A DNA stretch of 64,000 nt from Eubacteriales bacterium (GTDB taxonomy: Bacteria > Bacillota > Clostridia > Peptostreptococcales > Anaerovoracaceae). The stretch covers positions 19,450 to 83,449 of the forward strand of contig JAQXJR010000043.1 in the NCBI GenBank assembly GCA_029009055.1. The letters are read 5' to 3'. Below are positions 35,191 through 41,447 of the stretch, in pieces (within the stretch, counting starts at the first letter, position 1; every line of letters starts with the position of its first letter). The position numbers were made by a program, and so were the translations under genes. The notes beneath the pieces were generated by a model. That model was not told where the DNA came from. It made no database searches and saw nothing but the letters and a program-made list of their open reading frames with translations.

Positions 35191-36354
35191 ATGTATAAAT
35201 ATAAATGTCTGAACGCTATTTCCAGCGCCATAAATACGGTATTTGACGATCAGTATGAACCGACAGAGGACATGGACCAGGCTGATGCCATAATCGTTAG
35301 AAGCGCTAAGATGCATGACTTCGAGTTTTCTGACGACCTTCTGGCTATAGCCAGAGCCGGAGTCGGCGTTAATAACATTCCTCTCGAGAGGTGCGCTGAG
35401 CAGGGTATCGTAGTATTCAACGCTCCGGGAGCTAACGCTAATGGCGTTAAAGAGCTGGTAATAGCTTCTCTCATAAATGGAGCTAGGAATATTCCTGACG
35501 CTATCAGGTGGGTGAAGGATAACGCTGATGATCCTGACCTGGCTAAGGATGTCGAGAAAGGTAAGAAGAAATACGTAGGAACAGAGATTAAGGGTAAATC
35601 ACTGGGCGTCATCGGTTTAGGCGCTATAGGCGGCATGGTAGCTAACGCTGCTGATGTGCTGGGCATGAACGTTTACGGTGTAGACCCATTCCTGTCCGTA
35701 AGAAATGCTCTGTCCCTTTCCAGGAACGTAAGAGTGCTCAGGTCCAGAGACGAGCTTTACGGGGTCTCAGATTTCATCACTGTTCATCTTCACCTGACAG
35801 ATGAGACCAGAGGCATGATAGATAAGGACGCGTTCGAATCCATGAACGACGGTGTCATTCTGCTTAACTTCTCCAGAGGCGAGGTAGTGGACGAACAGGC
35901 TCTGGCTGACGCGCTTGAGTCAGGTAAGGTCAGAAAGTATGTTACTGACTTCGCCGACCCTGAAATCATGAAGCTTCCTAACGTAATAGCTACTCCGCAT
36001 CTGGGAGCTTCTACGACAGAGGCTGAAGTAAACTGCGCTATAATGGCGGCTGAGGAGCTCAGAGATTACCTGGAGAACGGAAACATCACGAATTCTGTTA
36101 ATTTCCCTGCCTGCAACGCCGGCGTCTGCAGATCTAAGGGCAGGATCACTGTGGCTCATAAGAACACTCCGGCTATGCTTAATAAGTTCACTAAGGTATT
36201 CTCAGACGAGAACATAAACATAGCCAACATGACTAACCAGACCCGCGGCGACTACGCTTACTGCATATTCGACATAGACTCAGAAACAACAGATCTTCTC
36301 ATAGACGACCTGAAGGCTATAGATGGAGTCATCAGAGTCCGCAAAATAAAATAA
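35191..36354 (+). CDS. serA: Phosphoglycerate dehydrogenase with C-terminal ACT domain
   Basis: ARAGVGVNNIPLERCAEQGIVVFNAPGANANGVKELV, GLGAIGGMVANAA, NFSRGEVVDEQAL, TPHLGASTTEAE, ACT region at C-terminus. Confidence 0.9.
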   Translation: MYKYKCLNAISSAINTVFDDQYEPTEDMDQADAIIVRSAKMHDFEFSDDLLAIARAGVGVNNIPLERCAEQGIVVFNAPGANANGVKELVIASLINGARNIPDAIRWVKDNADDPDLAKDVEKGKKKYVGTEIKGKSLGVIGLGAIGGMVANAADVLGMNVYGVDPFLSVRNALSLSRNVRVLRSRDELYGVSDFITVHLHLTDETRGMIDKDAFESMNDGVILLNFSRGEVVDEQALADALESGKVRKYVTDFADPEIMKLPNVIATPHLGASTTEAEVNCAIMAAEELRDYLENGNITNSVNFPACNAGVCRSKGRITVAHKNTPAMLNKFTKVFSDENINIANMTNQTRGDYAYCIFDIDSETTDLLIDDLKAIDGVIRVRKIK

Positions 36355-36603
36355 CCGGATATATCTTTATAAGAGGATCATAAAAGAGCTGAATTTTTCG
36401 GAATTTAGCTCTTTTTTGTGAAAAAGTCGAAAAATGTTTATAAAGATAAACGATTTATCTTAAGAAATATAAAGTACTCTGAAATTGCCTTAAGTAACCC
36501 TATTTTATATAGACAGTGTAGTACGCGTGTGGTACAACAGATAGGTAATATAGTGTAAGTTTCTATCTGATATGATCAGACTAAGTAAGAGAGGAGAGAC
36601 ATA

Positions 36604-38139
36604 TTGGATATTCTATCGAATATTAAATACTCTGCGCAGCATTTTGGCTCGGCTACAGCCTTTCATTCCAGGTCCGGAAATATATCATACCGGGAGCTTT
36701 GGAGGCAGTCGGACGCTATAGCGAGCTTCTTGGACACGGAGCTCGGGGATGACAGGTCCCCGGTCGTCGTTTTCGGTCATAAGGATCCCCTGATGCTTGT
36801 CTGCTTTCTCGGATGCGTTAAGTCAGGCAGAGCCTACTGCCCTGTAGATACCAGCATGCCGGCTGACAGGATCAGCGATATAGCCGAAGCGGCAGGAAAC
36901 GGCGTTCTCTTCGCCACGGAAGATTTCGATGAGTCCATGGCTCCAGATGGTGTCAGGGTCCTGTCCAGCGAAGAAATAAAGAGCATAACCAGTCTCGGCG
37001 GCACTGTCTCAGAAGATAAGTGGAATAAGCCAGAGGATATTTTCTACATCATATTCACTTCCGGGAGCACGGGCAAGCCTAAGGGTGTCCAGATCTCGAC
37101 GGCGAACTTGAACGCTTATGTGGAGTGGGCGGTGAAGCTGGGCGATTTCAAGCATCCGGCTGATAGGCCTGTCTACCTGGATCAGGCTCCCTTCTCGTTC
37201 GACCTGTCCGTCATGGACCTCTACACGTGCCTGGCCAGGGGCGGTGAGCTTTGGTCTGTGGATAAGAAGCTGACCAAGGATATTCCTGCTTTAGTTTCAT
37301 ATATAGCAAAGGGAAATATAGATTATTTTGTTTCCACGCCTTCGTTTGCGGATGTCTGCCTGGGAGACCCGGCTTTCAACGGGGATAATCTAAAGAGCCT
37401 GGATGCCTTCCTATTCTGTGGCGAGACTTTAACGAAGAAAACGACTGAAAGGCTCATGGAGAGGTTCCCGGATGCTCAGGTCATCAATACATACGGACCG
37501 ACTGAAACGACAGTCTGCATCAGTTCTGTCGTCATAGATAATGAGATGTTGGCTGATGACAGGTCTCTTCCGATCGGTATAGCTAAACCGGGAACGGAAG
37601 TCCTTATAATTGGCGATGACGGGGATGAGCTGGAAGCCGGGAAGGCGGGAGAACTCGTCATAACCGGAGACACCGTGAGTCCGGGATATTATCAGGATCC
37701 TGCGAAGACTAAGGATGTTTTCTTTGCTATAAAGAGAGGAGAGAAGACTGTAAGAGCTTACAGGACCGGCGACTCGGGATATAAGGACGAGACCGGCATG
37801 CTCTATTACGAGGGCAGGATAGACCAGCAGATAAAGCTGAACGGATACAGGATAGAGCTCGGCGACATAGAGCAGAACATACTCTTAATAGACGGCGTAG
37901 AGAAGGCGGCTGTCGTGCCTAACTACCAGGACGGTAAAGTGAAGAACCTGGCGGCTTTCATCGTGAAGGCTGCAGGCAGCGGTATACCTGACGGATACGA
38001 AGGCAGGAAATACGTTAGGAAGAGCCTGGCGGGGCTGCTGCCGAAATACATGGTGCCTAAGGTCGTGAATTTCATAGATGTCATGCCGCTTACCGGTAAC
38101 GGGAAGATAGACAGAGGCCAGCTGAGGAAGATGATATGA
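36604..38139 (+). CDS. dltA: D-alanine--poly(phosphoribitol) ligase (DltA)
   Basis: Adenylation domain: IIFTSGSTGKPKGVQIS, NTYGPTETTV, YRTGDSGY, GRIDQQIKLNGYRIELGDIE; TTG start with GAGAGGAGAG upstream; dlt operon context. Confidence 0.93.
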   Translation: MDILSNIKYSAQHFGSATAFHSRSGNISYRELWRQSDAIASFLDTELGDDRSPVVVFGHKDPLMLVCFLGCVKSGRAYCPVDTSMPADRISDIAEAAGNGVLFATEDFDESMAPDGVRVLSSEEIKSITSLGGTVSEDKWNKPEDIFYIIFTSGSTGKPKGVQISTANLNAYVEWAVKLGDFKHPADRPVYLDQAPFSFDLSVMDLYTCLARGGELWSVDKKLTKDIPALVSYIAKGNIDYFVSTPSFADVCLGDPAFNGDNLKSLDAFLFCGETLTKKTTERLMERFPDAQVINTYGPTETTVCISSVVIDNEMLADDRSLPIGIAKPGTEVLIIGDDGDELEAGKAGELVITGDTVSPGYYQDPAKTKDVFFAIKRGEKTVRAYRTGDSGYKDETGMLYYEGRIDQQIKLNGYRIELGDIEQNILLIDGVEKAAVVPNYQDGKVKNLAAFIVKAAGSGIPDGYEGRKYVRKSLAGLLPKYMVPKVVNFIDVMPLTGNGKIDRGQLRKMI

Positions 38140-39323
38140 TGGCGCTTTTCTCAGATACCAGCTTCTTCGTACTGGCGGGAATACTGGCTGTGCCGGCTTT
38201 GATATTGGGTCTTAGGGAGAAGCCTATTAAATATTACGGCTTCGCGGTGACGCTCGTTTTCGTCTGGCTGTCCATGGGACATAATACGGCGGCGCTTTGC
38301 TGGTTGGCAGCCTTCTGTGTGGGGGAGTACGCCCTGATCCAGGCCTACCTGGCATTAAATAAGAAGTATCGCAGAAATAAATGGATATACTTCGCTGCCC
38401 TCGCTTTATCGATTTCGCCGCTCGTCACATATAAGATATTGAGCGCTGTGGGGAATTCTCATCATATCTGGGGCTTCCTCGGTATATCTTATCTGACGTT
38501 TAAGGCGGCGCAGATAGTCATAGAGATCTACGACCAGGTCATAACTGAAGTGAAGGCCTTCGATTTCTTCTATCTGATGCTGTTTTTCCCGGACATAACG
38601 TCGGGCCCGATAGACAGGAGCAGGAGGTTCAGCGAAGATATAAACAGGGTCATACATAAGTCGGAATACGCTGAGATGGCGGGAACGGGTCTGCACAGGA
38701 TCCTTATAGGCATGGTCTATAAAATGGTCTTGGGAACGGGTTTCTACCAGATAATGGCCACTCAGGGAGAACATCTGACGATAAAGTCTTTGCTGATATA
38801 CATATATTGCTATGGCTTCTACCTCTTCTTCGATTTCGCCGGCTACAGCCACATGGCGATTGGCATAAGCTACATATTCGGTGTAAAGACGCCGGAGAAC
38901 TTCGATAAGCCTTTCGTCAGCAAAGACATGAAGGAGTTCTGGGACCGCTGGCATATAACGCTGTCTCACTGGTTCAGGGATTTCATATTCTCCAGGGTGA
39001 CCATGAATATGATCCGCCATAGATGGACGAGAAATAAGCTGGTCATCGCGTCGACCGCTTTCATGGTGAATATGCTGGTCATGGGATTCTGGCACGGTCT
39101 GGAGCCGTATTACATAGCATACGGTCTCTACCACGGTGTCCTGCTGTCCCTGACAGAGATATACCAGAAGAAATCGAAGTTTTATAAGAAACATAAGAGG
39201 GATAAGTGGTTCCAGGTGATAGAGTGGTTCATAACATTCAACCTGGTTATGTTCGGCTTCTTCATCTTCTCCGGCAGGCTGCACCACCTGATCGTTACGG
39301 GGAAAATAGGAGTGATTTTCTAA
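38136..39323 (+). CDS. dltB: Teichoic acid D-alanyltransferase, MBOAT family (DltB)
   Basis: MBOAT protein; FFPDITSGPIDRSRRF, FWDRWHITLSHWFRDFIF, VMGFWHGLEPYYIAYGLYHG. Confidence 0.93.
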   Translation: MMALFSDTSFFVLAGILAVPALILGLREKPIKYYGFAVTLVFVWLSMGHNTAALCWLAAFCVGEYALIQAYLALNKKYRRNKWIYFAALALSISPLVTYKILSAVGNSHHIWGFLGISYLTFKAAQIVIEIYDQVITEVKAFDFFYLMLFFPDITSGPIDRSRRFSEDINRVIHKSEYAEMAGTGLHRILIGMVYKMVLGTGFYQIMATQGEHLTIKSLLIYIYCYGFYLFFDFAGYSHMAIGISYIFGVKTPENFDKPFVSKDMKEFWDRWHITLSHWFRDFIFSRVTMNMIRHRWTRNKLVIASTAFMVNMLVMGFWHGLEPYYIAYGLYHGVLLSLTEIYQKKSKFYKKHKRDKWFQVIEWFITFNLVMFGFFIFSGRLHHLIVTGKIGVIF

Positions 39324-39371
39324 AGTTGACCGCCGGATGTAAGGCATCCGGAAAATATAGGAGGAATTATT

Positions 39372-39608
39372 ATGGAAGATAAGATTTTTGACATGCTCGA
39401 GGATATATGCGGCGACCCTATAGTAAGGGAGAACCCTGACATAGATCTGCTGGGCGAGGAACTCATGGATTCTCTGGATTATGTAGAGCTGCTCATGAAC
39501 ATCCAGGACGAACTCGGTGTCGTGATAGCTCCGTCTGAAGTGACCAGGGAAGAAATGGCTACGCCGAATAAGATCATAGCTGTAGTGAAGGCCAGGATGA
39601 ATAAATAG
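39372..39608 (+). CDS. dltC: D-alanyl carrier protein (DltC)
   Basis: ~78-aa ACP-like protein, LLGEELMDSLDYVELLMNIQDELGVVIAPSEV; DSLD phosphopantetheine site. Confidence 0.92.
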   Translation: MEDKIFDMLEDICGDPIVRENPDIDLLGEELMDSLDYVELLMNIQDELGVVIAPSEVTREEMATPNKIIAVVKARMNK

Positions 39609-39625
39609 ATTTCAGGGCAGAAGTA

Positions 39626-40888
39626 ATGACTAAGATTAAAGCTTTTTTTACAGCTCTTCTTCTAATGGTTCTGTTCGCTCTGGGCATTCACGGGGTCTTC
39701 AGCCACATGTCACTGAAAGATGATAAGGATATGATCGGTGCCTGGACCAGCAGCTATAAGGACCTGTCCTATAACTGGGTGAGCGATAACCTGACGGAGC
39801 CGGACATAATGCCTGTATTGGGCTCATCTGAGTTCAATCACGGCCTCGGCCAGCCTTACCATCCATTTTCTCTTTTTAACGCTAAAGAGAGCGATGTTAA
39901 GATAATGAACATAGGCGGCCCATTCAACCAGACGCTTTTCCATACCGTATTCCTGGGCGCGGCGGAGCCCCAGATGAAGCTGAGGAAGGTGGTCTTCCTG
40001 GCTTCTCCGACATGGTTCCAGCGGGGCGGTGTATCTAAGGAGTCATATGGGCTGAGGTTCTCGACAGGCGAATACATAGCTTTCATGGAGAATGATAATA
40101 TACCTAAGTCCATTAAGGAATATGTAGCAAAGCGTTCCGAGAAGCTCCTCGCGGATGATACGGGGAAGATAAAGGACGTAAGGCTCATAGACAGGGTGAA
40201 TCTGAGCGGGAAAGCAGGCCCTGTAAGCAAACTCAGATATAATGTACTTAAGATGTACACGTTCGATACAGATATAGTCACGACTAAGACTGCCATGGCT
40301 ATAAGGGAGAAGACCGGTAAGGGGACCGGCAGGAAGAAAAAGAGCTCCGCGAAATATCCCGAGGATCCGAAAAGCCCCATGATGTGGGAAAGGGCAGGAG
40401 AAAGAGGATCTGCCGGAAAGTCCGGCTATTTCGTGAACTGGAATGTACTGGAACAGTACGCTGAGCGCCGTGATCCGCGCCATTCCAATAAGAATGACTT
40501 CTTTATGGATGACCACGAATGGGGTAAGCTGTATAAGACACAGTATAAGAAGCTTAAAGGCTACCACAGTAAGACCAGGTGGGATAAGTCGCCGGAATTC
40601 ACAGATCTGGCATATTTCCTCAAGCTCTGTAGGGCCAGAGGCATTAAAGCCGAGGTCATCGTTCTGCCGGTGAATGGCTACTGGTACGATTACACAGGCA
40701 TGACCGCTAAGAGAAGGGATGACTTCGAGAAGAAGATCGCTGGTGTCTGCGATAAATATGGCGCTGAGGTCGCTTCACTCTCTAAGTACGACTATGATAA
40801 ATACATAACCATGGACGCTGTGCACCCGTGGGGGAAGGGCTGGATAAAGATAAATGAGCAGATCTACAGATTCTATAGAGAAAAATAG
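39626..40888 (+). CDS. dltD: D-alanine transfer protein DltD
   Basis: LGSSEFNHGLGQPYHP, MNIGGPFNQTLFHTVFLGA, DAVHPWGKGWIKINEQI. Confidence 0.92.
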   Translation: MTKIKAFFTALLLMVLFALGIHGVFSHMSLKDDKDMIGAWTSSYKDLSYNWVSDNLTEPDIMPVLGSSEFNHGLGQPYHPFSLFNAKESDVKIMNIGGPFNQTLFHTVFLGAAEPQMKLRKVVFLASPTWFQRGGVSKESYGLRFSTGEYIAFMENDNIPKSIKEYVAKRSEKLLADDTGKIKDVRLIDRVNLSGKAGPVSKLRYNVLKMYTFDTDIVTTKTAMAIREKTGKGTGRKKKSSAKYPEDPKSPMMWERAGERGSAGKSGYFVNWNVLEQYAERRDPRHSNKNDFFMDDHEWGKLYKTQYKKLKGYHSKTRWDKSPEFTDLAYFLKLCRARGIKAEVIVLPVNGYWYDYTGMTAKRRDDFEKKIAGVCDKYGAEVASLSKYDYDKYITMDAVHPWGKGWIKINEQIYRFYREK

Positions 40889-41081
40889 CGGGGAAGCTCC
40901 TGATACATCTATCCCCGGAAATGAAGCCGTTGGAGACGAGGCGGGCAGAGAGCCGTCAAAAGAATTTAAGAAATATATTAAGTATACTTTGATATTCTTC
41001 GGGCTTATGACTGTTCTGTATCTCTTCTCTATGTATGGTTCCATGCTGGCTTCGCCGGGCTTCACATACGCTGAGTTCTAA
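40854..41081 (+). CDS. dltX: DltX-like small single-TM protein
   Basis: 75 aa: polar N-terminus, one TM helix (YIKYTLIFFGLMTVLYLFSMYG) and C-terminus ...SPGFTYAEF, resembling the FxYxEF end of DltX; overlaps the dltD 3' end by 35 nt. Confidence 0.65.
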   Translation: MSRSTDSIEKNSGEAPDTSIPGNEAVGDEAGREPSKEFKKYIKYTLIFFGLMTVLYLFSMYGSMLASPGFTYAEF

Positions 41082-41210
41082 GTAAGGGCTTTTTCGCTTG
41101 GAGAGGCGCTTTTCAGAAATGCCAGGGCTGAATTTAACATTGATTTTTTTTCTGACTGAGTTATCATGAATGTTATCGATGTTGATGAAAACGAATGAAT
41201 GGAGTATAGC

Positions 41211-41447
41211 ATGCCTAGACTTGATAATAATAACGAAAATATTGTTAAAAGAAATATGAAGACCCTTAGGATACTGACGATTATGGACACTATCATAGGG
41301 ACGATATTCATGATCATGGGCTTCCTGGAGATTTCTGTTAAGTCATACGGTTACACTGCTCTTTATCTGGCGCTGGCAGCGGCTTTTCTCGGCCTAGCGG
41401 GCATGTACTGGTACAGATATAGGAAACTCGCCAGGAGGAACATGTAG
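41211..41447 (+). CDS. Small two-TM membrane protein of unknown function
   Basis: MPRLDNNNENIVKRNMKTLRILTIMDTIIGTIFMIMGFLEISVKSYGYTALYLALAAAFLGLAGMYWYRYRKLARRNM; hydrophobic pattern plausible. Confidence 0.6.
   Translation: MPRLDNNNENIVKRNMKTLRILTIMDTIIGTIFMIMGFLEISVKSYGYTALYLALAAAFLGLAGMYWYRYRKLARRNM

Follow-up and report, generated by a model that had tools for sequence, protein, structure and literature searches.

A probable divergent DltX encoded downstream of dltD in an Anaerovoracaceae bacterium

Introduction

The dlt operon present in the stretch of Anaerovoracaceae DNA analysed here (64,000 nucleotides, hereafter the window) raises the question of whether a small open reading frame (ORF) overlapping the end of dltD encodes DltX. 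The usual place of dltX is directly upstream of dltA, with "two exceptions" among 185 (2013, PMC3783018), and a 2017 paper likewise places it upstream of dltA "in most cases" (PMC5541007). D-alanylation in Bacillus thuringiensis requires DltX (PMC5541007). According to PMC12148441, D-alanine is transferred from DltB to the tyrosine of the FXYXXF motif of DltX and on to DltD, and other MBOATs carry this motif fused to their own chain. The initial annotation, made from the window alone, proposed a DltX-like protein with one transmembrane (TM) helix, a C-terminal FTYAEF and an extra polar N-terminus of about 40 residues, encoded at the 3' end of the operon.

Results

The dlt operon and the ORF that follows dltD

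The operon spans positions 36604-41081 in the order dltA-B-C-D-X (Table 1). The ORF following dltD starts with an ATG, ends in GFTYAEF followed by the stop codon and overlaps dltD by 35 bp in a different frame, exactly where the initial annotation had located it. Its start codon is embedded in the Asn-Glu codons of DltD (aATGag). The sole other in-frame start is a TTG located inside the TM helix, so the 75-residue form fits and a shorter form was rejected.

Table 1. Features of the dlt operon of the window and of its dltX product (window positions).
Feature	Position	Strand	Evidence
dltA, D-alanine--DltC ligase, TTG start	36604..38139	+	NCBIfam NF003417, 571 bits, above cut-off 476; TIGR01734, 549 bits, slightly below cut-off 560
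dltB, MBOAT acyltransferase	38136..39323	+	TIGR04091, 500 bits, cut-off 375
dltC, D-alanyl carrier protein, DSL phosphopantetheine site	39372..39608	+	TIGR01688, 71 bits, cut-off 52
dltD, SGNH-type D-alanyl transferase	39626..40888	+	TIGR04092, 290 bits, cut-off 150; Pfam DltD, 263 bits
dltX (almost certain), divergent, 75 aa	40854..41081	+	same position in 27/27 complete Anaerovoracaceae dlt loci
Extra N-terminal stretch, ~22 residues, polar, acidic (residues ~10-31)	~40881..40946	+	alignments A2 and A4
Single TM segment, residues 47-65	40992..41048	+	hydropathy; predicted helix 36-65
C-terminal hexapeptide FTYAEF	41061..41078	+	Y72 and F75 invariant, F70 >90% in 26 aligned sequences
Tyr72, proposed acyl carrier	41067-41069	+	within FTYAEF

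With regard to topology, the product exhibits one hydrophobic stretch (mean Kyte-Doolittle hydropathy 1.7), directly preceded by a charge of +3 in residues 38-44. AlphaFold predicts a single helix with a core pLDDT of about 94 and an N-terminus of low confidence, which agrees with the single TM helix initially proposed. Judged from the charge only, the C-terminus would lie outside and the N-terminus in the cytoplasm.

No canonical dltX was found upstream of dltA, as the three forward frames of 36000-36800 contain no frame ending in FxYxxF. A promoter scan gave nothing beyond chance level, and no terminator was called directly 3' of dltX. Co-expression of dltX with the operon is probable, and the conserved overlap with dltD, described below, suggests that translation of the two genes may be coupled. 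An 82-residue hydrophobic ORF without a convincing family match is present at 41199-41447 (+), 117 bp past dltX.

Conservation in Anaerovoracaceae

A DltD search covering 149 genomes of Anaerovoracaceae gave 28 loci with a close DltD relative, of which 27 are complete, the contig of the remaining one (L013) stopping 20 bp past dltD. Two further loci (L029 and L030) hold distant SGNH matches only and have no dltX-like ORF. In all 27 complete loci, the end of dltD contains the start of a short ORF whose product has a single hydrophobic segment and (F/Y)xYxxF as its last residues. The C-terminal motif is thus conserved in every complete dlt locus of the family, and the placement after dltD, initially noted for the window, is the norm in Anaerovoracaceae. 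The A-B-C-D-X order is also that of the named relatives L047-L052, L054 and L058. These ORFs usually encode 50-62 residues, compared with 75 in the window; two were listed mechanically as 66 and 76 residues because of earlier in-frame ATGs. Besides the motif residues given in Table 1, Tyr56 (window numbering) is invariant in the alignment of 26 sequences.

In the genus of the window, Hornefia as broadly defined by GTDB, 11 of 17 genomes have a match to the family alignment. The 11 genomes encoding a DltB above the cut-off are exactly those with the dltX ORF (0/6 of the others), and the six genomes without dltX contain only weaker MBOAT paralogues. A second dltX was found in the genome of the window neither with PF12459, the Pfam model of DltX (E <= 0.001), nor with the family alignment A2. 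Neither observation that would have refuted the initial proposal, an unconserved C-terminal motif in related genomes or a separate canonical dltX, was made.

The dltD-dltX junction and gene order elsewhere

Among 38 distinct dltD-dltX pairs, the overlap ranges from 26 to 53 bp, being 35 bp in 18 of them, and it varies with how long the tail of DltD is. With few exceptions, dltX starts in these pairs within the codons of a conserved (Asp/Asn)-Glu dipeptide of DltD, as GAT GAA or AAT GAG holds an ATG in the other frame. In a Clostridium locus (L056), the dipeptide is Ser-Glu, the start codon of dltX is GTG and the order is D-X-B. Four loci from two other families (L034-L037) exhibit the same junction with a PF12459-positive DltX, in the order D-X followed by dltA, and the textbook X-A order is observed in three genomes (L031-L033). 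In one of these three genomes (DltD in L059), Asp-Lys stands at the matching place of DltD, and its codons give no ATG; this contrast with the (Asp/Asn)-Glu of the D-X junction is only suggestive, as it relies on one clear case.

A partial literature search found no description of the A-B-C-D-X order, and this gene order is under-described. Two further arrangements were observed. Atopobacter sp. AH10, belonging to the Bacilli by name, has a dltA-B-C-D-X operon (L053:3481-7729) whose DltB is 51% identical to that of the window and which was possibly acquired from Clostridia. In a single genome (G273:C1:2864835-2871787), three DltD-like genes (L068, L069 and L062) are clustered around dltX.

Profile comparison with canonical DltX

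The window protein is unmatched by PF12459, whose curated cut-off is 25 bits, at any listed E-value, and the model matches 6 of the 26 family members at E <= 1, the best at 0.0052. We also compared profiles, the canonical side consisting of seven DltX sequences detected by PF12459. In this one hhalign comparison, the family matches canonical DltX with a probability of 92.5%, a score of 33.9 and an E-value of 4.7e-7. The best of 100 column-shuffled controls reached 19.2, or 23.4 with the hexapeptide left in place. When the hexapeptide was removed on both sides, the score was 25.4, the shuffled controls reaching at most 14.4, so the similarity goes beyond the motif.

We treat the miss by PF12459 as a matter of the reach of the model and not as a biological property, and the protein as a divergent DltX lying beyond it. 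That reach ends short of this protein, which is why the gene was overlooked. Neither A2 nor a canonical DltX matched any solved structure. A class-wide search with A2 gave strong matches in family members only; four weak matches (E of about 3e-4 to 1e-3) were judged unrelated, three being in large open frames and one having an internal stop.

An unrelated single-TM protein could have acquired the same C-terminal hexapeptide and replaced DltX in the same job. Such a convergent replacement would account for a PF12459 match below reporting and for strong sharing being limited to the hexapeptide and a handful of TM positions. We nevertheless regard it as very improbable, since the body without the hexapeptide scores well above all the shuffles, PF12459 itself matches some family members down to E = 0.005, and the same junction carries a PF12459-positive DltX in other families. 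That the ORF is a chance or non-coding overlap, or a remnant adjoining dltD, is suggested by its small size, its overlap with another gene and its lack of a convincing Pfam or NCBIfam match, but this can be dismissed as next to impossible because the invariant motif and start position are kept in all 27 complete family loci, and no other frame among the 648 in the window that run from stop to stop over at least 40 residues ends in FxYxxF.

The product thus combines profile homology, a single TM segment with basic residues, FxYxxF with an invariant tyrosine, and co-occurrence with DltB. It falls short of the Pfam cut-off, and its gene is not immediately upstream of dltA, a place that is customary and not strictly defining. 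On these observations the ORF is almost certainly dltX, in agreement with the initial proposal.

The N-terminal insertion

Relatives sharing the start position are mostly 53 residues long, the window protein being about 22 residues longer. As its start codon is at the conserved site of the family, the extra length corresponds to an insertion of about 22 residues. The extra polar stretch of the initial annotation does exist, but it is about half as long as the 40 residues initially given when measured against close relatives. Residues 1-37, ahead of the TM-proximal FKKYIKY, carry a charge of -5, and the inserted stretch has low AlphaFold confidence. The simplest reading of the acidic N-terminus is a disordered tail on the cytoplasmic side that the protein tolerates. 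A DltX of 133 residues from the same genus (L077:1243-1641), with its start codon at the same site within dltD, exhibits an Ala/Ser/Thr/Pro-rich insertion of about 80 residues in the same N-terminal region.

Discussion

Based on these results, we are confident that the ORF is dltX and encodes a single-pass membrane microprotein, probably oriented N-in/C-out, whose Tyr72 would shuttle D-alanine from DltC via DltB to DltD. Its gene comes last in the operon and starts inside the conserved (Asp/Asn)-Glu codons near the end of dltD, as is standard in Anaerovoracaceae. By homology with other DltX proteins and with PatA, Tyr72 would take D-alanine from DltC through DltB and hand it to the active-site serine of DltD, which would then esterify teichoic acid with D-alanine. 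The DltB of the window ends in FSGRLHHLIVTGKIGVIF, without an FxYxxF motif. All true DltBs of the genus lack this motif, whereas FLYFRF and FVYRNF are the last residues of two MBOAT paralogues in the genome of the window. This distribution is expected if DltX supplies FxYxxF in trans. Of the two paralogues with a fused motif, one lies at L100:120-1523, on the reverse strand with positions given on the reverse complement, and the other at L101:1376-2923 (+).

A wider reading is that the dltD-dltX junction is the more ancient state and persisted as the dltABC block changed place around it (ABC-DX here, DX-A or DX-B elsewhere), and that the acidic or Ala/Ser/Thr/Pro-rich N-termini of some species of the genus provide an arm in the cytoplasm that regulates the system or binds DltC. 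We find this combination rather unlikely. In our preferred reading, as a DltX with a tolerated N-terminal tail, the protein belongs to the known D-alanylation pathway as a real component with nothing unusual about it.

DltX is essential to the pathway, yet Anaerovoracaceae genomes are likely annotated as devoid of it, since neither the public model nor a search in the customary place, before dltA, finds it. With the place known and the family alignment available, dltX can be annotated in Anaerovoracaceae. The family sequences also add natural variation for testing which DltX residues outside the hexapeptide matter.

The window protein shares with DltX of Bacillus, Staphylococcus and Streptococcus (PF12459, formerly DUF3687) a single TM segment, a short C-terminus, predicted to be extracellular, with FxYxxF, a gene within the dlt operon, and the partners DltB, DltC and DltD. 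In contrast, its gene follows dltD and does not directly precede dltA, its sequence is too divergent for the Pfam model, and it has 75 residues instead of about 50, including the 22 or so extra acidic N-terminal residues. This acidic N-terminus differs from the basic one described for Bacillus DltX, which is a point against the DltX reading. The ORFs of Aminicella lysinilytica (L047) and Hornefia butyriciproducens (L048) are closer, with the same position, start site within dltD and motif and 42-47% identity, but they are 53-55 residues long and do not have the inserted acidic stretch. With PatA-type MBOATs, as described in PMC12148441, the protein has in common FxYxxF at a C-terminus predicted here to be extracellular and, probably, the acyl-tyrosine chemistry; in those enzymes the motif is fused to the MBOAT, whereas here it is carried by a separate microprotein.
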